Assembly (NCBI GenBank): GCA_023393155.1
Contig: JAEWML010000236.1
Span: 1-11,711, forward strand
Reading direction: 5' to 3'
Length of the DNA stretch: 11,711 bases
Source of the DNA: Bacillota bacterium
GTDB lineage: Bacteria; Bacillota; Clostridia; Oscillospirales; Oscillospiraceae
Under the pieces are notes generated by a model. It was not told the DNA's origin. It was given only the letters and a program-made list of their open reading frames with translations, and did no database searches. Shown here in pieces: positions 3,265 to 10,849 of the stretch. The stretch's first letter is position 1; the number at the start of each line of letters is the position of its first letter. Both the position numbers and the translations under genes were made by a program.

Positions 3265-3293
3265 TTGACAGAAGGGGCTGTCCGTGGTATTTT
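3265..3293 (+). promoter_or_regulatory. Near-consensus sigma-A promoter of the putative ncRNA
   Basis: TTGACA at 3265-3270 and TATTTT at 3288-3293 are separated by exactly 17 bases. The DNA just upstream is AT-rich (around 3235-3260), as in an UP-like region. Transcription should begin near 3299-3301. No protein start codon with a ribosome binding site follows before the terminator, so the product is inferred to be an RNA. Confidence 0.75.
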
Positions 3294-3299
3294 AAATAT

Positions 3300-3480
3300 G
3301 CAGTTAGTTATAACTAATCGGACACGCCGGATGGCCCGATGCAAATGGGGGCAAAGGACCTCTCACGGCGCGAAAGGTTGTCGCTGACAGGCTAGGAGTT
3401 TTTCTACATTGGATGCGCGGCTTGCGTATTCACCCTCCGGTTTGGCTGACACCGGGCGGGCAGAGGAAAAGCTTCCCGTT
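3300..3480 (+). ncRNA. Putative structured non-coding RNA (possibly raiA-type; unproven)
   Basis: This stretch follows a strong promoter, lacks a credible reading frame and folds well by eye. A GCCC/GGGC stem at 3334-3352 is capped by AT/AT pairs and a GCAA (GNRA) tetraloop. CGGCG at 3366-3370 pairs with a downstream CGCTG around a CGAAAGG-containing loop. ATGCGC and GCGTAT pair over six bases around 3413-3430. CCC-T-CCGGT at 3433-3441 pairs with ACCGG-G-GGG at 3451-3460 with one bulged C. CCTCT at 3359-3363 can pair with AGAGG at 3462-3466, enclosing the later stems. GAAA- and GCAAA-rich joints resemble tertiary-contact elements. I checked it against remembered cores of c-di-GMP, TPP, FMN, SAM, glycine, T-box, 6S, SRP and RNase P RNAs and saw no match. 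Size, complexity and host type would suit the raiA motif, but I cannot verify that, and no raiA gene is in the window. Confidence 0.5.
3304..3317. promoter_or_regulatory. Perfect 14-bp palindrome at the ncRNA start site
   Basis: TTAGTTA/TAACTAA is a perfect palindrome lying within about the first 18 transcribed bases. The position suits a repressor that blocks initiation or early elongation. The TTAG...CTAA ends are reminiscent of metal-dependent DtxR/MntR-family operators, but that is resemblance only. In RNA the same bases are self-complementary without a loop, which favours a DNA role. Confidence 0.45.
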
Positions 3481-3519
3481 TCCTTTCTTTTCCTTTATTT
3501 CCTGTTTTCCCTCATGAAA

Positions 3520-3551
3520 GGCCCCGGGCGGACGCCATACCGCCCGGGGCC
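3520..3551 (+). repeat. Perfect 12-bp GC hairpin downstream of the ncRNA
   Basis: GGCCCCGGGCGG at 3520-3531 pairs perfectly with CCGCCCGGGGCC at 3540-3551 around an eight-base loop. No T-run follows, so it is not a classical terminator alone. A pyrimidine-rich tract of about 40 bases (about 3474-3513) lies just before it. It may stabilise the RNA 3' end or pause polymerase ahead of the terminator 14 bases downstream. Confidence 0.6.
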
Positions 3552-3565
3552 GAACTCTGTCTATG

Positions 3566-3597
3566 GGCCGCCGATTTTCGGCGGCCTTAGCTTTTTT
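3566..3597 (+). terminator. Intrinsic terminator of the ncRNA cassette
   Basis: Arms 3566-3574 and 3578-3586 form a perfect nine-base-pair GC stem with a TTT loop. TTAG separates it from a run of six T at 3592-3597. It closes the unit that starts at the 3265 promoter and isolates it from the downstream kinase gene. Confidence 0.8.
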
Positions 3598-3788: not shown

Positions 3789-3817
3789 TTGCATTTCGGA
3801 GCGGAGTATCGTATGAT
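3789..3817 (+). promoter_or_regulatory. Promoter of the ribokinase gene
   Basis: TTGCAT at 3789-3794 and TATGAT at 3812-3817 are separated by 17 bases. The predicted start near 3824 leaves a leader of about 54 bases before the kinase ATG. This promoter lies inside the longest open frame of the kinase, which supports the downstream start at 3878. Confidence 0.6.
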
Positions 3818-3877: not shown

Positions 3878-4876
3878 ATGCTGAGAAGGCCAAAGATTTT
3901 GGTGGCTGGCAGCTTCATGATGGATTTGATTGCGTCCACACCCAGGGCGCCTTCTGCGGGAGAGACGGTCATCGGGACCGATTTTCGCACCGCACCCGGG
4001 GGAAAGGGCTCAAATCAGGCGGTCCAATGCGCCCGGCTGGGCGCGGAGGTCACCATGGTGGGACAGGTGGGAGACGACGCCTTCGGGCGGGCGCTGCTTG
4101 ACGCGGCGGAGCGCTCCGGCGTGGATGTGAGCCGGGTGCTGACGGACCCGGACAAAGCAACCGGCATCGCCCACATTCTTCTGGAGATTACGGAAAACGG
4201 CGTGCAAAACCGTATTACCGTGGTTCCCGGGGCAAACTATTCCACCACCTGTGAGCAGGTGGCGTGGCTGCGGGATGAAATCGGGTGCTTTGATCTGGTG
4301 ATGCTCCAGCTTGAGATTTCCATGGAGATCAACGTTGCCGTGGCGCAGTACGCCAAGGCGGCGGGAGTGCCGGTGATGCTGAACCCCGCCCCGGCGGCGG
4401 CGCTTCCGGAGGAGCTTTTGCGCTGCGTCACCTATCTCTCGCCCAACGAGCACGAGGCGGCGGCCCTCACAGGCCTGCCCCTGCGGGCGGACGAACGCGG
4501 CGTTGATCGGGAAGACGTGGAGGCGGTTTCGGCGGCGCTGCTTCGGCGTGGGGTGGAGAACGTGATGATAACACTGGGTGAAAATGGCTCCGTCGTGGCA
4601 GGCTCCGGCGAAATTGCCTATACCCCCTGCGTGAAAATGCCGGAGGTGAAGGACCCCACCGCCGCCGGCGACTCCTTTGTGGCGGCCTTCTGCACCGGGC
4701 AGGCCGCGGGACTGCCCAGGGAGCAGGCGCTGGCCTTTGCCTCCCACGCCGCCGCCATCACCGTGTCCAGGATGGGTGCCATGCCGTCCCTCCCCACCGT
4801 GGAGGAGGTCCAGGCCCTGCTGCGGGAGCGCGGATACGCGGGGTTTGACATCTCGGAGCTGGACGCGCTGCGGTAA
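3878..4876 (+). CDS. rbsK: Ribokinase (PfkB-family sugar kinase)
   Basis: This 332-residue protein is the length expected for ribokinase, which phosphorylates D-ribose at O5 with ATP in the cytoplasm. An early V-A-G-S-F-M-M-D strand leads to the PfkB signature GGKGSNQA (residues 41-48). An N-E-H-E element (LSPNEHEAAALTG) and a TLGENGS strand follow in the C-terminal half. The catalytic loop is DPTAAGDSF (259-267), with Asp265 as the expected base; many ribokinases have DTTGAGDSF. The start is ATG 3878 because AAGGAG lies eight bases upstream at 3865-3870 and the family's first beta strand begins right after it; the open frame continues back to 3746 but crosses the promoter. No ribose transporter or regulator is adjacent, so a related sugar or nucleoside is possible. 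The phosphoketolase downstream would consume pentose phosphate. Confidence 0.88.
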   Translation: MLRRPKILVAGSFMMDLIASTPRAPSAGETVIGTDFRTAPGGKGSNQAVQCARLGAEVTMVGQVGDDAFGRALLDAAERSGVDVSRVLTDPDKATGIAHILLEITENGVQNRITVVPGANYSTTCEQVAWLRDEIGCFDLVMLQLEISMEINVAVAQYAKAAGVPVMLNPAPAAALPEELLRCVTYLSPNEHEAAALTGLPLRADERGVDREDVEAVSAALLRRGVENVMITLGENGSVVAGSGEIAYTPCVKMPEVKDPTAAGDSFVAAFCTGQAAGLPREQALAFASHAAAITVSRMGAMPSLPTVEEVQALLRERGYAGFDISELDALR

Positions 4877-5110: not shown

Positions 5111-7477
5111 ATGAGCGAATGCATGGAAAGACAGCCGCTGACGGAGGACTACCTGAAAAAGATGGACGCCTATTGGCGTGCGGCAAACTACCTGTCTGCG
5201 GCGCAGCTTTATCTGTTGAAAAATCCCCTGCTGCGGGAGCCCCTGCGTGCGGACCAGATTAAAAAGAAGATTGTGGGCCACTGGGGTACCGTCCCCGGGC
5301 AGAACTTTGTCTACGTCCACCTGAACCGCATCATCAAACAGTACGATCAGGACATGATTCTTCTTTCCGGGCCGGGCCACGGGGGCAACTTCTTCGTGTC
5401 CAACACGTATCTGGAGGGGACTTACAGCGAGGTGTATCCCAACGTGAGCCGGGATATGGAGGGGCTGCAAAGGCTGTGCAAGCAGTTTTCCTTCCCCGGC
5501 GGCATCGCAAGCCACGTGGCTCCGGAGACGCCGGGCTCTATCAACGAGGGCGGCGAGCTGGGCTACTGCCTGTCCCACGCCTATGGCGCGGTGTTTGACA
5601 ACCCCGGACTGATCGCCGCCGTCACCGTGGGCGACGGCGAGGCGGAGACGGGCCCTCTGGCTACCTCGTGGCTTGGAAATCAGTTTTTGAACCCGGCGGC
5701 CGACGGCGCGGTGCTGCCCATCCTCCACCTGAACGGCTACAAAATCAGCAATCCCACGCTCTTCGCCCGAATGAGCCATGAGCAGATTGACAGCTATTTT
5801 AAAGGCTGTGGCTGGAAGGCCCACTTTGTGGAGGGGGACGACCCCATAACCATGCACCGCCTGATGGCCGACACGCTGGATACGGTGATGGCCGAGATTC
5901 AGGCCATTCAGGCCGCCGCCAAGGCCGGTGAGACGGCACACAGGGAGTGGCCCATGATTGTCCTGCGGACGCCCAAGGGCTGGACCGGCCCCAAGGAAGT
6001 GGACGGAAAAAAGGTGGAGGGAACCTTCCGCGCCCATCAGGTGCCCATCTCCATGGAGAAGCCGGAGCATCTCAAGATGCTGGAAGAATGGCTTTTGAGC
6101 TACCGTCCGGAGGAGCTGTTCGGCGAGAACGGACGGCTGATTCCCGCGCTTGAGGAATTGGCCCCGGTGGGGCTGCGCCGCATGGGCGCAAATCCCCACG
6201 CCAACGGCGGAAAGCTCCGCCGGGACCTGCGGCTGCCGGACTTCCGGGACTACGCCGTGGAGGTCCCCGCCCCCGGCGCGGTGGAGGCGCAGGACATGAT
6301 CGAGCTGGGCGGCTATGTGCGGGATACGTTCCGGCTGAACGCCGACGCAAAGAACTTCCGTATTTTTGGGCCGGACGAAACCATGAGCAACCGCCTTGGC
6401 AAGGTGTTCGAGGTCACGGGCCGCGGTTGGAACAGCGCCACGGTGGAGGGAGACGAATTCCTCGCCGCCGACGGGCGGGTGATGGACTCCATGCTCTCCG
6501 AGCACATGTGCGAGGGAATGCTGGAGGGGTATCTCCTCACCGGGCGGCACGGTTTTTTTGCCAGCTACGAGGCGTTTATCCGCATCGTGGACTCCATGTG
6601 CGCCCAGCACGCCAAGTGGCTGAAAACCTGCAACGAGCTGCCTTGGAGAGAGTCCATTTCCTCTTTGAACCTGATTCTTTCCTCCAATGTCTGGCAGCAG
6701 GACCACAACGGCTTCACCCATCAGGACCCGGGCTTTTTGGACCACATCGCCAACAAAAAGGCGGACGTGGTGCGGCTCTATTTGCCGCCGGACGCCAACT
6801 GCCTGCTTAGCTGCTTCGACCACTGCATCAAGAGCCGGGACTATGTGAACGTGCTGGTGACCAGCAAGCATCCCCGGCCTCAGTGGCTGACCATGGAGCA
6901 GGCTGTGAAGCACTGCACCCAGGGCGTTGGCATCTGGAACTGGGCCAGCAGCGATCAGGGAAGCGAGCCGGACGTGGTGATGGCCTGCTGCGGCGACACG
7001 CCCACGCTGGAGACGCTGGCGGCGGTGACCATTCTGCGGGAGAAGATGCCGTCCATCAAAATCCGGGTGGTAAACGTGGTGGATTTGATGAAGCTCCAGC
7101 CCGCCACGGAGCATCCCCACGGGCTTAGCGACCCGGAGTACGACGCGCTGTTTACGGTGGATAAGCCCATCATTTTTGCGTTCCACGGCTATCACACACT
7201 GATTCACGAGCTGACCTACCGCCGCCACAACCGCAATATCCATGTGTACGGCTATAAGGAGGAGGGGACCATCACCACCCCCTTTGATATGCGGGTGCAG
7301 AACGAGGTGGACCGGTTCCATCTGGTGAAAAACGTGCTGCGGTATCTGCCGGAGCTGACGGGGCGCAGCGCCCATCTCATTCAGGAGATGAACGACAAGC
7401 TGGTGGAGCACGGGCAGTATATCCGGGAATACGGCGAGGACCTGCCGGAAATCCGCGACTGGAAGTGGCGCGGGTAA
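5111..7477 (+). CDS. xfp: Xylulose-5-phosphate/fructose-6-phosphate phosphoketolase
   Basis: A 788-residue thiamine-diphosphate enzyme of full family length. It splits xylulose 5-phosphate with phosphate into acetyl phosphate and glyceraldehyde 3-phosphate; many members also split fructose 6-phosphate to acetyl phosphate and erythrose 4-phosphate (EC 4.1.2.9 / 4.1.2.22). Visible hallmarks are GHWGT (56-60), GPGHGG (87-92), EGTYSEVYP (102-110), the first signature [15 protein letters not shown] (146-160) and the second, diphosphate/Mg-binding signature [14 protein letters not shown] (174-187). The second half carries GPDET (420-424), [18 protein letters not shown] (about 464-481) and [12 protein letters not shown] (531-542). 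All three transketolase-like regions are intact. ATG 5111 has TGGAGG at 5098-5103 seven bases upstream. Substrate preference cannot be read from the sequence. It follows rbsK by 234 bases in the same direction, so the two may be co-regulated, but the hairpin between them leaves co-transcription open. Confidence 0.96.
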
Positions 7478-7563: not shown

Positions 7564-7622
7564 TTCTCTCTTTGCGCTGTTACGTTCCGGGCGCCCGGCG
7601 CGTCTATGTGGCAAAGAGAGAA
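7564..7622 (+). repeat. Widely spaced 12-bp inverted repeat in the sigma gene leader
   Basis: TTCTCTCTTTGC at 7564-7575 is the exact reverse complement of 7611-7622. The 35-base interval contains a perfect CCGGGCGCCCGG palindrome at 7587-7598. If transcribed, the leader would form a stem whose base ends nine bases before the ribosome binding site of the sigma gene (about 7632-7637). Translation control or a paired protein-binding site are both possible. Confidence 0.5.
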
Positions 7623-7641
7623 CGCGGGAAGGGGGAGAAGC

Positions 7642-8175
7642 TTGCTGCCGATTTATTTTGCGGTGATGGACGAGGATTGCGACAGGGAACTGTTTGACAT
7701 GGTCTATCAGCAGTTTTACAACAGGATGATGCGTGTGGCGCGGCAGATTCTGCCCTCCCAGACGCAGGCGGAGGACGCGGTACACGACGCGTTTTTAAAG
7801 ATTATTCAACATTTTGACGATTTAAAGGCGGTGCCGGAGGAGCGGCGGATTTACTGGGTCGTGACGGTGACGAAAAACGCCGCGCTGGACCTTTTGCGAA
7901 AGGAGAGGCGGGATTTGCCCATGGATGAGGAAGTGCAGCGGCAGGCGCCCGCCGTACCTGCGGAGGAGGGCGGCTTCCGCGCACTGGTGGAGATCATCCG
8001 GCAAATGCCGGACACCTATCGCCGGGTGCTGGAGCTGCGGTTTTTAACGGAATGGAGCCACGCGGAGATTGCCCGGGAGCTGCACATCAGCGAGGGCGCG
8101 GTAAAAACCCGCGTGGCCCGGGGGCGGCAGATGCTGATTGAGTCCATGAGAAAGGAGGGATACGTCTGTGAGTAA
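7642..8175 (+). CDS. RNA polymerase sigma-70 family (ECF-like) factor
   Basis: The 177-residue protein has a region 2 at about 16-88 (core binding and -10 recognition; AEDAVHDAFLKII at 43-55) and a region 4 at about 112-165. The region 4 helix-turn-helix covers EWSHAEIARELHISEGAVKTR (137-157, -35 recognition). There is no region 1.1 or 3, as in ECF-type factors. I prefer TTG 7642 as the start: GGGGAG (7632-7637) lies just upstream, and the resulting N-terminus, MLPIYFAVMD, resembles relatives I recall from Clostridia. ATG 7606 has no ribosome binding site and overlaps the inverted repeat; ATG 7666 is a less likely alternative. The gene overlaps the next by eight bases, indicating translational coupling with its probable partner. 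Target promoters are unknown and no autoregulatory promoter was recognised upstream. Confidence 0.86.
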   Translation: MLPIYFAVMDEDCDRELFDMVYQQFYNRMMRVARQILPSQTQAEDAVHDAFLKIIQHFDDLKAVPEERRIYWVVTVTKNAALDLLRKERRDLPMDEEVQRQAPAVPAEEGGFRALVEIIRQMPDTYRRVLELRFLTEWSHAEIARELHISEGAVKTRVARGRQMLIESMRKEGYVCE

Positions 8176-9337
8176 GCTGAATCTGGATGAACACCTGACA
8201 ACGGCTTTGATGGAGGCCCTGCGGGAGGACTGGGAGCAGGTGCTGGAATGCGAGGAGGCCCCCCGGATGTCCTGGCGGCAGCGCCGCCGGCTTAAGCGGA
8301 TGCTGGCGGACCCGAAGGGCTACTGCCGCCGGTATTTGCGGGACAGGGAGGAACCCTCCCAAAACGGAGCGCTTGCAAGCCCCGGCGAGGTGCGCGTCAG
8401 AAGAAGGCATATGAGGCGGGCGGTGATGGCGGCCGCGGCTGCGGCGCTGCTGGGCGGCTCCGCGCTGGCGTATTCCCTGACGGGCGGGGTGTTTTTCACC
8501 CGTATGTTTGACTTTTTCGGACAGGAGCTGGGGCTGGACGCCGGTGTTGCCGACATGTCCCAGCTTGCCAAAACGGACGGCGCGGCTCTGGGTATCATCC
8601 TGGAGACGGACGAGCTGCGCGTTGAACTGCTGGACGCGGTGTCCGGCGGCTACATGTCCATGACCGCCCTGCGGGTAACCTGCAAGCAACTGGACACCGT
8701 TCTGGAGAAGGACGAAAATGGGGATGTTCTGTGGCAGGCCATGTTTGGCGACATGGATGGAAGCATCACCGACAACGCCACGGTTTACGGCAGCAGCTAC
8801 CAGTATACGGGGGAGGAACTGGGGCTGGAGCTGGCAAGCAATCAGTTCTGCCTGATTTTCAACACCAACAGCACCGAAACCATCAAGGCGGGAATCTATA
8901 CGCTGGAGCTGCACAATCTGGTGAAAACCAGTTGGGACACGGAGGATACGATGCTGCACACGGGGGACTGGACATTGAATATCCCCTTGGAGGACGGTGC
9001 GAAATATGCCCGCACGGCGCTGGTTGGAGGGAAGTATACCATCAGCGGGACGGAGTATCTTCTGGAGCGCGTTCAATATTCGCCCCTTTCCATGAACCTC
9101 TATTTTTCCTCGGAAATGCCTGCGGCGGACAGGTTTAATTTTACCGACTATTCCGTGACGCTGAAGGACGGCAGGGTGTTGGACGGCCCGTGGCTGTTCT
9201 GCGGCGTGGGCAGCGGGAGCGACGCATCCGGGAGCAGCGCACAGGTGACGCTGGAATTCAACGCACCGCTGAACGTGGATCAGATTGCCTCCGTCCAGTT
9301 CTGCGGGTATTCGTTGGACCTGACCGCCGCAAAATAG
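8168..9337 (+). CDS. Membrane protein, probable anti-sigma factor
   Basis: A GTG start at 8168 has AAGGAGG at 8152-8158 and overlaps the sigma stop codon, so the two are co-translated. The 389-residue product has a charged N-terminal cytoplasmic part (about 1-84, rich in Arg, Glu and Leu), one membrane helix at about 85-103 after a cluster of Arg and His residues, and an external part of about 285 residues. That part is beta-rich by pattern, with an F-F-T-R-M-F segment right after the helix. This topology and pairing are typical of membrane anti-sigma factors that hold a sigma factor until an outside signal arrives. The N-terminal part lacks the HxxxCxxC zinc motif of the ZAS class, so inhibition is inferred from context only. 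The external domain may be DUF4179-like, but I cannot confirm it. The ligand is unknown. Confidence 0.75.
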   Translation: MSKLNLDEHLTTALMEALREDWEQVLECEEAPRMSWRQRRRLKRMLADPKGYCRRYLRDREEPSQNGALASPGEVRVRRRHMRRAVMAAAAAALLGGSALAYSLTGGVFFTRMFDFFGQELGLDAGVADMSQLAKTDGAALGIILETDELRVELLDAVSGGYMSMTALRVTCKQLDTVLEKDENGDVLWQAMFGDMDGSITDNATVYGSSYQYTGEELGLELASNQFCLIFNTNSTETIKAGIYTLELHNLVKTSWDTEDTMLHTGDWTLNIPLEDGAKYARTALVGGKYTISGTEYLLERVQYSPLSMNLYFSSEMPAADRFNFTDYSVTLKDGRVLDGPWLFCGVGSGSDASGSSAQVTLEFNAPLNVDQIASVQFCGYSLDLTAAK

Positions 9338-9687: not shown

Positions 9688-9942
9688 TTAGTCCGTGACG
9701 TAGGGCAGCAGGGCGATCTGCCGGGCACGCTTGATGGCCTCGGTCAGCTCGCGCTGATGCATGGCGCAGGTGCCGGTGGTGCGGCGGGGCAAAATCTTGG
9801 CCCGCTCGGAGATGAAGCGGTGAAGCTTCGAGGCGTCTTTATAGTCGATGAACTCCGTCTTGTCCGCGCAGAACTGGCAAACCTTGCGGCGCTTGTTCCG
9901 GTTCATGGGACGAGAGGGTCTGGAATCACGATCATAAGCCAT
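9688..9942 (-). CDS. rpsR: 30S ribosomal protein bS18
   Basis: The 84-residue protein matches bS18 along its length. It has a basic N-terminus, [22 protein letters not shown] in the core (with DYKD starting near residue 33) and the [19 protein letters not shown] region near the C-terminus. bS18 binds 16S rRNA together with bS6 in the small-subunit platform. Cys22-x-x-Cys25 and Cys59-x-x-His62 could form a zinc site, as in the zinc-binding form of S18. AGGAGG at 9951-9956 on the minus strand precedes the ATG. It is the last gene of rpsF-ssb-rpsR, 40 bases after ssb. Confidence 0.97.
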
Positions 9943-9982
9943 GATAAATTCCTCCTTTTACAAAAATGGCGCTGACAGACGG

Positions 9983-10435
9983 TCAGAACGGCAGCTCGCC
10001 GTCTTCTTCCCCGATCTCAGCAAAATCGGAGTGGGCGTCCACGGGGGCCGGAGCATGTCCTCCGGCAGGCGCGCCGTAGGCCGGAGCGTGATAACCGCCG
10101 CCGGACTCTCCGTCGCGCTTGGAATCCCCAAAATATACGTTGTCGGCCACGACCTCGGCAGAGCGGCGCTTGCCGCCCTCCTTGTCGGTCCAGTCGCGAA
10201 GCTGCAAGCGGCCCTCTACAATGGCCATGCGGCCCTTGGTGAAGTATTTGCTCACAAATTCCGCGGTGGTGCGCCAGGCGACAATGTCGATGAAATCCGT
10301 CTCCTTTTCGCCGCTCTGGGACTTAAAGTCCCGGTCCACAGCCAGAGAGAAGGAAGTCACGGCAGTGCCGCTGCCGGTGCGGCGCAGCTCGGGGTCCCGG
10401 GTGAGACGACCCATGAGGATAATCTTATTGAGCAT
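9983..10435 (-). CDS. ssb: Single-stranded DNA-binding protein
   Basis: The 150-residue protein opens with MLNKIILMGRLTRDPELR, the typical SSB beginning, and its OB fold covers about residues 1-110. The disordered Gly/Pro/Ala-rich linker leads to an acidic tip EEDGELPF, which in SSBs recruits replication and repair partners. It binds and protects single-stranded DNA in replication and repair. The start is ATG at 10433-10435, since the reading frame upstream (to 10609) only overlaps rpsF. A GGGGG-rich ribosome binding site lies in the 11-base gap after the rpsF stop codon, suggesting coupled translation. Confidence 0.96.
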   Translation of the reverse strand: MLNKIILMGRLTRDPELRRTGSGTAVTSFSLAVDRDFKSQSGEKETDFIDIVAWRTTAEFVSKYFTKGRMAIVEGRLQLRDWTDKEGGKRRSAEVVADNVYFGDSKRDGESGGGYHAPAYGAPAGGHAPAPVDAHSDFAEIGEEDGELPF

Positions 10436-10446
10436 ATCCTGCCCCC

Positions 10447-10743
10447 TTATTCGCCCTTGCAGACGATCAGGGAACGCATGATGCCGTCCGTAATGCCGAG
10501 AATACGGTCCAGCTCCCGGGGGAAAGCCGCGGGACTGTTGAACGTCATCAGCACGTAGTAGCCCTCGTTTTTGAAGCTGATGGGATAGGCCAGCTTGCGG
10601 CTGCCCCACTCCTCTACTTCCACGTTGGACCCGTTCTGCTCGGCGAGGGTTTTGAACTTCGCCACCAGAGCGGCGGTGTCTTCCTCACTGCGTGCAGGGT
10701 CGATAATGTAGACGACCTCGTAATTGGCGGTAATTTTTGCCAT
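10447..10743 (-). CDS. rpsF: 30S ribosomal protein bS6
   Basis: The 98-residue protein has the bS6 layout: an N-terminal strand with NYEVVYIIDP, a helix with EEDTAALVAKFKTLAEQNG, then WGSRKLAYPI and GYYVLMTFNSP strands and the ELDRILGITDGIMRSLIV helix/strand. bS6 pairs with bS18 on the 30S platform. ATG at 10741-10743 has a strong AAGGAGG at 10751-10757 seven bases upstream. The open frame extends 11 codons further but without a ribosome binding site. It is the first gene of the operon and probably subject to S6:S18 autoregulation through the leader. Confidence 0.97.
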   Translation of the reverse strand: MAKITANYEVVYIIDPARSEEDTAALVAKFKTLAEQNGSNVEVEEWGSRKLAYPISFKNEGYYVLMTFNSPAAFPRELDRILGITDGIMRSLIVCKGE

Positions 10744-10762
10744 TTTTGCACCTCCTTTTGGA

Positions 10763-10815
10763 CATATGGCCCCCATTCAAGGATGGGGGCAAGGATATGC
10801 TTGCAGACTGCAAGC
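10763..10815 (-). promoter_or_regulatory. Structured rpsF leader, candidate S6:S18 autoregulatory element
   Basis: Read on the minus strand, the leader has two hairpins between the predicted start (about 10815) and the ribosome binding site. The first is GCTTGCA/TGCAAGC (10799-10815) with a three-base loop. The second has a CATAT/ATATG base (10795-10799 with 10763-10767), an internal loop CCTT opposite C, then GCCCCCAT/ATGGGGGC (10769-10776 with 10783-10790). An mRNA element bound by the S6:S18 complex is known upstream of rpsF in many bacteria. I do not see its characteristic CCG clearly, so the assignment is tentative. Confidence 0.45.
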
Positions 10816-10821
10816 CCTATT

Positions 10822-10849
10822 ATTATACAGGAAAGGGGTCAAATGTCAA
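10822..10849 (-). promoter_or_regulatory. Promoter of rpsF-ssb-rpsR
   Basis: On the minus strand, a perfect TTGACA (10844-10849) and a perfect TATAAT (10822-10827) are 16 bases apart. The flanks are AT-rich. The predicted start is near 10815, giving a leader of about 72 bases before the rpsF ATG. Confidence 0.88.

Follow-up and report, generated by a model that had tools for sequence, protein, structure and literature searches.

A segment at positions 3300-3597 of the window, the whole analysed stretch of 11,711 nucleotides, appears to encode a small regulatory RNA (sRNA), hitherto unlisted, of Oscillibacter-like gut bacteria; judging by its operator, it is apparently controlled by an iron-sensing repressor. 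With moderate confidence we read this segment as a stand-alone gene for an iron-regulated sRNA resembling FsrA, IsrR and MrsI, which would pair with Shine-Dalgarno regions. What is observed is the architecture of the gene, an operator shared with feo, flavodoxin and DtxR genes, a set of helices, and the lack of both a conserved reading frame and a common downstream gene. The source of the window is, by the 78% identity of its kinase to the O. ruminantium GH1 kinase, an Oscillibacter-like bacterium. The features of the window copy are as follows.

3265..3293, plus strand: sigma-70 type promoter, TTGACA-17-TATTTT, from a promoter scan; kept in both relatives in genome G485
3303..3318, no strand: operator GTTAG-TTATAA-CTAAT, the core TTAG-N6-CTAA occupying 3304-3317; proposed site for a DtxR-family protein, spanning the start point
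3300..3597, plus strand: predicted sRNA transcript of about 298 nt, its start placed from the -10 hexamer and its end from the terminator
3412..3430, plus strand: helix of the long form, 8 pairs; 8/8 pairs kept in three sequences, 4 changed on both sides
3437..3455, plus strand: helix of the long form, 5 pairs; 5/5 pairs kept in three sequences, 1 changed on both sides
3494..3515, plus strand: C/U-rich strand, proposed seed; sequence kept in the stand-alone copies and in those of operon 3' UTRs, function putative
3520..3551, plus strand: 12-pair hairpin with loop ACGCCATA; 12/12 pairs changed on both sides among 34 distinct sequences
3565..3597, plus strand: intrinsic terminator of the window copy, stem 3565-3587, then a T-run to 3597

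A sequence-only reading of the window had described a promoter and an intrinsic terminator enclosing no credible reading frame, and these claims stood. TTGACA (3265-3270) and TATTTT (3288-3293) are separated by 17 bases; since the window contains five promoter-like sites against 3.6 in shuffles, the promoter match alone is not significant. Both hexamers and the 17-base spacing are identical in the two full-length relatives found in G485. The terminator stem and T-run are present, and the transcript contains only frames of 18, 34 and 18 codons, with no Shine-Dalgarno match. The RNA folded more stably than shuffles (z -4.84, 0/200). Two finer details of that reading, a GNRA cap and a long-range CCTCT/AGAGG pairing, are not kept at the aligned positions in both G485 relatives (alignment A4, by eye). 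The operator had been overlooked: TTAGTTATAACTAA, a perfect palindrome of 14 bases, occupies 3304-3317. Searching the window for this palindrome gave one match at three or fewer mismatches, against 0.06 expected, and a match of this kind turned up in 11 of 200 shuffles.

Within the genus of O. ruminantium (G001), a DNA search of 86 genomes brought up two relatives spanning the full length of the RNA, both in G485: one at C1:1228917-1229223 (E 2.2e-22) and one in two pieces at 1461250-1461550. The first lies between a LysR-type-like regulator gene (by eye) and a gene whose product begins like the phosphoketolase of the window; given this position, the first copy and the window RNA gene are probably orthologous. 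Relatives of the 3' part were found in other genomes, for example behind flavodoxin in G476 (E 2.3e-10). A covariance model of the 3' part (R1), made with the window copy, the two copies of G485 and one of G476, found 56 places in 38 of the 86 genomes at E 0.01 or better, and we inspected the best 45 (E 5.5e-4 or better, three of them in the model); one of the 11 weaker places is the opposite strand of a known place. Fifteen of the 45 are stand-alone genes with promoter and operator, 20 stand directly behind a flavodoxin gene and 6 behind a DUF3793 gene (five by tblastn, and L117 by reading, at a contig edge), so that the element is at the 3' end of an mRNA in 26 of the 45 inspected relatives, the window copy itself being stand-alone. 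By manual count, 32 of the 86 genomes carry a copy supported by its context. Flavodoxin, DUF3793, FeoA, FeoB and DtxR were assigned with Pfam for representatives and with tblastn for the rest. The four remaining places (L119, L141, L146 and L151) had no supporting context and were set aside. At L119 (1501-1565; contig C5 of O. ruminantium G001), only the hairpin part remains, directly behind a LysR-like gene and with neither promoter nor operator, and it looks like the remnant of a stand-alone sRNA gene. Of the 20 flavodoxin-type loci, 12 also have a DUF3793 (PF12672) gene ahead of flavodoxin inside the flank that was fetched (e.g. L102, 424-1481), which suggests a role for DUF3793 in iron metabolism.

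In every one of the 16 stand-alone copies, that of the window among them, a promoter with a 17-base spacer, chosen by script as the best near the operator site, is followed by TTAG-N6-CTAA, which is exact in 15 and has one mismatch in L133; it lies exactly 10 bases after the -10 hexamer in 14 of the 16, and 7 and 11 bases after it in the other two. Sites of this kind were also present in the fetched flank upstream of 25 of the 26 operon copies, the remaining copy being at a contig edge. The longer form GTTAG-N6-CTAAC occurred 15 times in 2.0 Mb of G485, always in intergenic positions according to a simple gene caller, compared with 4, 0, 0, 0, 0 and 0 times in six first-order Markov control sequences, and GTTAG/CTAAC at spacings of 3, 4, 5, 7, 8 and 9 occurred nowhere in the same 2.0 Mb. 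The shorter TTAG-N6-CTAA gave 22 sites there, all intergenic, versus 7-14 in the Markov controls. In the flanks of L138 and L114 at least two TTAG-N6-CTAA sites stand in a row, and in L138 one of them is inside the predicted RNA.

The genes at the 15 G485 sites include two DtxR-family regulators, each preceded by an operator-type site, a FeoB, a DUF3793 gene with flavodoxin and the element behind it, an ABC transporter, an ATC_hydrolase-family gene, the gene of a 1602-residue protein and both sRNA copies. Three sites (1436206, 1447232 and 2889765) had no called gene start within 350 bases, and one of the three lies some 1.3 kb ahead of a flavodoxin element. Next to the second sRNA copy, two tandem operators (L109, G485:C1 near 1460652-1460715) precede the gene of the 1602-residue protein, possibly an iron-regulated surface protein. 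At 12 of the 45 inspected places feoA is 0.7 kb or less downstream, and at L142 one of the two DtxR genes sits between flavodoxin with its element and feoA-feoB. PF02742 proteins were present in 8 of the 8 genomes searched. DtxR-family proteins sense manganese too, and the identity of the metal is therefore read from the feo and flavodoxin company, which suggests iron rather than manganese. By its geometry, TTAG-N6-CTAA fits a DtxR-type operator to which a repressor would bind: the DtxR/IdeR-type half-site and its position, as described in PMC10317159, correspond to CCTAA-type repeats over the -10 or start site, an arrangement found in these copies with a pattern that does not require the outer C/G.

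The conserved core of the RNA consists of CUUAUCUCCUUUUUUCCCCUCA and, behind it, a GC hairpin of 12 pairs whose loop contains GCCAU in most copies. Of the 46 sources available, nine near-duplicate or doubtful loci were omitted and 37 supplied to alignment A7, which took up 36. Among its 34 distinct rows, 98.8% of hairpin cells are paired and all 12 pairs are changed on both sides, figures that lean towards structure because A7 was fitted to it; 0 of 500 shuffles scored as high, and slid pairings reached at most 52.9%. The helices at 3412-3430 and 3437-3455 are likewise conserved, in three sequences. Mean conservation is barely higher in the C/U strand than in the stem (1.31 vs 1.24 bits per column). 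The complement of the C/U strand is Shine-Dalgarno-like.

The window and G485 copies have an additional 5' domain containing these two further helices. In the three sequences 13 of 13 pairs are kept and 5 are changed on both sides, and 8 of 500 shuffles scored as high. A model of this long form (R3) found 19 places in 16 of the 86 genomes, with strong scores only for the two G485 copies and no match to the long-form domain in the 13 other stand-alone copies; the other 17 places (E 0.001-0.043) were taken as chance on score. Searching the DNA of 14 genomes, and that of 400 family genomes, returned only short weak matches. Another model, R2, found 39 places in 35 of the 400 family genomes at E 0.001 or better, a count with likely misses because its first pass scored only 13 candidates per genome. 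Of the 26 new R2 loci that we read, four (L170, L172, L173 and L177) have TTAG-N6-CTAA in the fetched flanks, and the 22 with no such site in their flanks look like ordinary terminators and were rejected.

We propose that a DtxR-family repressor loaded with ferrous iron keeps the gene off by sitting on TTAG-N6-CTAA across the start site, a step suggested by the architecture and by the company of genes with the same operator. Under falling iron, the RNA would be produced alongside the feoAB and flavodoxin operons, which carry this operator as well. The C/U-rich strand before the terminal hairpin would then pair with the Shine-Dalgarno regions of mRNAs and reduce their translation, giving what may be an iron-sparing response. 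As the element is also found in the tail of flavodoxin messages, the RNA probably helps against iron shortage. Because the same strand and hairpin end the DUF3793-flavodoxin operon mRNAs of relatives, an sRNA of this kind may also be released from the 3' UTR of these messages; a short fragment freed in this way would begin near CUUAUCUCC. More tentatively, one strand-plus-hairpin module may be used twice in a single iron regulon, in free sRNA genes and in the 3' UTR of the flavodoxin operon. The flavodoxin mRNA, which encodes an electron carrier free of iron, would thereby help to silence iron-requiring proteins, and the stand-alone copies would have arisen from a 3' end placed under a DtxR-type promoter, or the reverse.

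To score predicted targets, duplex energies were computed for 1491 start regions in part of G485, with three seeds and 60 shuffled seeds for each. Proteins with iron-sulfur motifs numbered 0 in the top 50 for each of the three seeds (shuffled averages 0.9, 1.1 and 0.8). Rank tests were not significant for all iron-sulfur-motif proteins (p 0.26, 0.60 and 0.72), and for the ferredoxin type they gave p 0.066, 0.096 and 0.13, values matched by 18%, 20% and 55% of shuffled seeds. The test had low power because only 32 of the 1491 genes carried such motifs and the calling of starts was crude. A second scoring, judged by eye, brought out no clear protein class. The complement of the seed, allowing up to three mismatches, was matched in 41 of the 86 genomes, many of the matches being the element itself; a frame start lay behind 2 of the 16 places inspected, namely a doubtful 76-codon GTG frame (L196) and a frame of 374 codons that is aldo/keto-reductase-like by eye (L217).

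This negative target test, the T-runs that follow many copies, and the position of the element directly behind the last gene of an operon in those 26 inspected places are what one would expect if the C/U strand and hairpin were a dedicated 3' end of iron-regulated transcripts, serving as terminator, stabiliser or processing site with no action in trans, and if the stand-alone copies were remnants or by-products. We consider this improbable, since 15 inspected copies, like that of the window, are each equipped with a conserved promoter and operator, the transcripts of L136 and L152 are only about 100 nt long and hold little beyond the element, and termination needs no single-stranded C/U tract so conserved. 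It is also rather unlikely that the RNA uses its C/U-rich tract to bind a protein or titrate another RNA instead of repressing mRNAs. That the tract is strongly conserved, yet no target class emerged, would agree with such a role, but its complement resembles a Shine-Dalgarno sequence, and the C-rich motifs of FsrA and IsrR act on Shine-Dalgarno regions according to the sections of PMC9410917 drawn on here.

The base-pairing sRNA gene that we favour stands between an SLH-domain gene, whose end is at 2969, and a kinase gene of the pfkB family, which starts at 3878 on the same strand. This position upstream of the kinase could suggest a cis-acting leader or attenuator of the downstream gene, a reading we hold to be very unlikely: the RNA ends at a terminator 280 bases short of the kinase start, the next larger gene is a phosphoketolase at the first G485 copy, the next gene at the second is on the opposite strand, and 80 kinase-relative loci gave only chance-level matches upstream of the kinase, none convincing. 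A separate kinase promoter, placed near 3789 by the sequence-only reading, was absent from the five sites of the promoter scan. Its broader view of an independent non-coding RNA gene was borne out, as promoter, operator and helices are conserved, no reading frame is, and the downstream genes differ among the stand-alone relatives. Farther along the window, Pfam identifies a phosphoketolase at 5111-7474. At 7606-9337, a gene for a sigma-70 family (ECF-like) factor is directly followed by a 389-codon frame with no Pfam match, which could encode a partner regulator of the adjoining sigma gene. On the minus strand at 9691-10849, the order rpsF-ssb-rpsR (Pfam: Ribosomal_S6, SSB, Ribosomal_S18) has a promoter-like site in front with a 12/12 match (TTGACA-16-TATAAT, 10849-10822).

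That the segment belongs to a structured RNA family already known (raiA or some other in Rfam) or is a small-peptide gene, as its length and stable folding might hint, is scarcely credible, because no Rfam 15 family reached its gathering score for the window, L095/L109 or 12 relatives, 11 of the 16 stand-alone transcripts have no complete frame of at least 15 codons, and the 38-codon frames at the same place in the two G485 relatives share just 9 of 38 residues (manual count). The raiA-type RNA offered by the sequence-only reading is thus not supported. Its other suggestion, an unclassified RNA, holds for the family, whereas for the class the operator and genomic company indicate an iron-regulated, probably base-pairing sRNA. 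The best sub-threshold match of the window was ylbH, at 29.1 bits where 50 are needed; the alignments to ylbH, P6 and sX11 rest mainly on strong hairpins, and these candidates were rejected.

Searches of the open-licence literature on Oscillibacter with sRNA, iron or flavodoxin showed no description of such an RNA, none of the papers listed for iron limitation naming Oscillibacter, and a search on DUF3793 with flavodoxin showed nothing relevant. Extracts of open-licence papers on UTR-derived sRNAs, on DtxR/feoB in Clostridia and on DtxR-type operators in Clostridiales held nothing describing this system, and flavodoxin, feo, DUF3793 and Oscillibacter were unmentioned in the main text of two surveys of structured RNAs, as far as a term search of that text extends. 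If our reading is true, the Oscillibacter group has an RNA of the iron-sparing type under a DtxR-type operator, of which these searches gave no example. The operator, regulator, sRNA, flavodoxin and feo genes would offer a compact regulon for study, and the copies a natural series for asking whether 3' UTRs become independent sRNA genes or the reverse.

The proposed RNA can be compared with four known systems. Three of them, FsrA, IsrR and MrsI, belong with RyhB to the functional class of iron-sparing sRNAs. FsrA of Bacillus subtilis has an Rfam model and is controlled by Fur. The RNA described here differs in having no Rfam match at gathering score and in carrying a DtxR-type operator. The two would be alike as stand-alone sRNAs of Gram-positives, and the proposed C/U seed recalls the C-rich motif with which FsrA, in the account that we used from PMC9410917, binds Shine-Dalgarno sequences. 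The same portion of that source gives IsrR of Staphylococcus iron-repressor sites at its promoter and C-rich single-stranded regions, both of which recall the proposed operator and seed of the present RNA; in IsrR, however, these are Fur boxes and three C-rich regions, whereas here there are TTAG-N6-CTAA and a single long C/U strand, next to the last hairpin that is conserved. Mycobacterial MrsI, which in the excerpt of PMC8628891 used is about 100 nt long and has a promoter box for IdeR, a DtxR-family protein, is alike by this description but belongs to another lineage, and the RNA here has no Rfam match at gathering score. Finally, the module at the 3' end of DUF3793 and flavodoxin genes in 26 of 45 places resembles the sRNAs from 3' UTRs of metal-regulated mRNAs, such as that of Streptomyces sodF as presented in the part of PMC3919588 consulted; unlike the sodF 3' UTR RNA described there, the present module occurs, in addition, in genes that have promoters of their own and the same type of operator.
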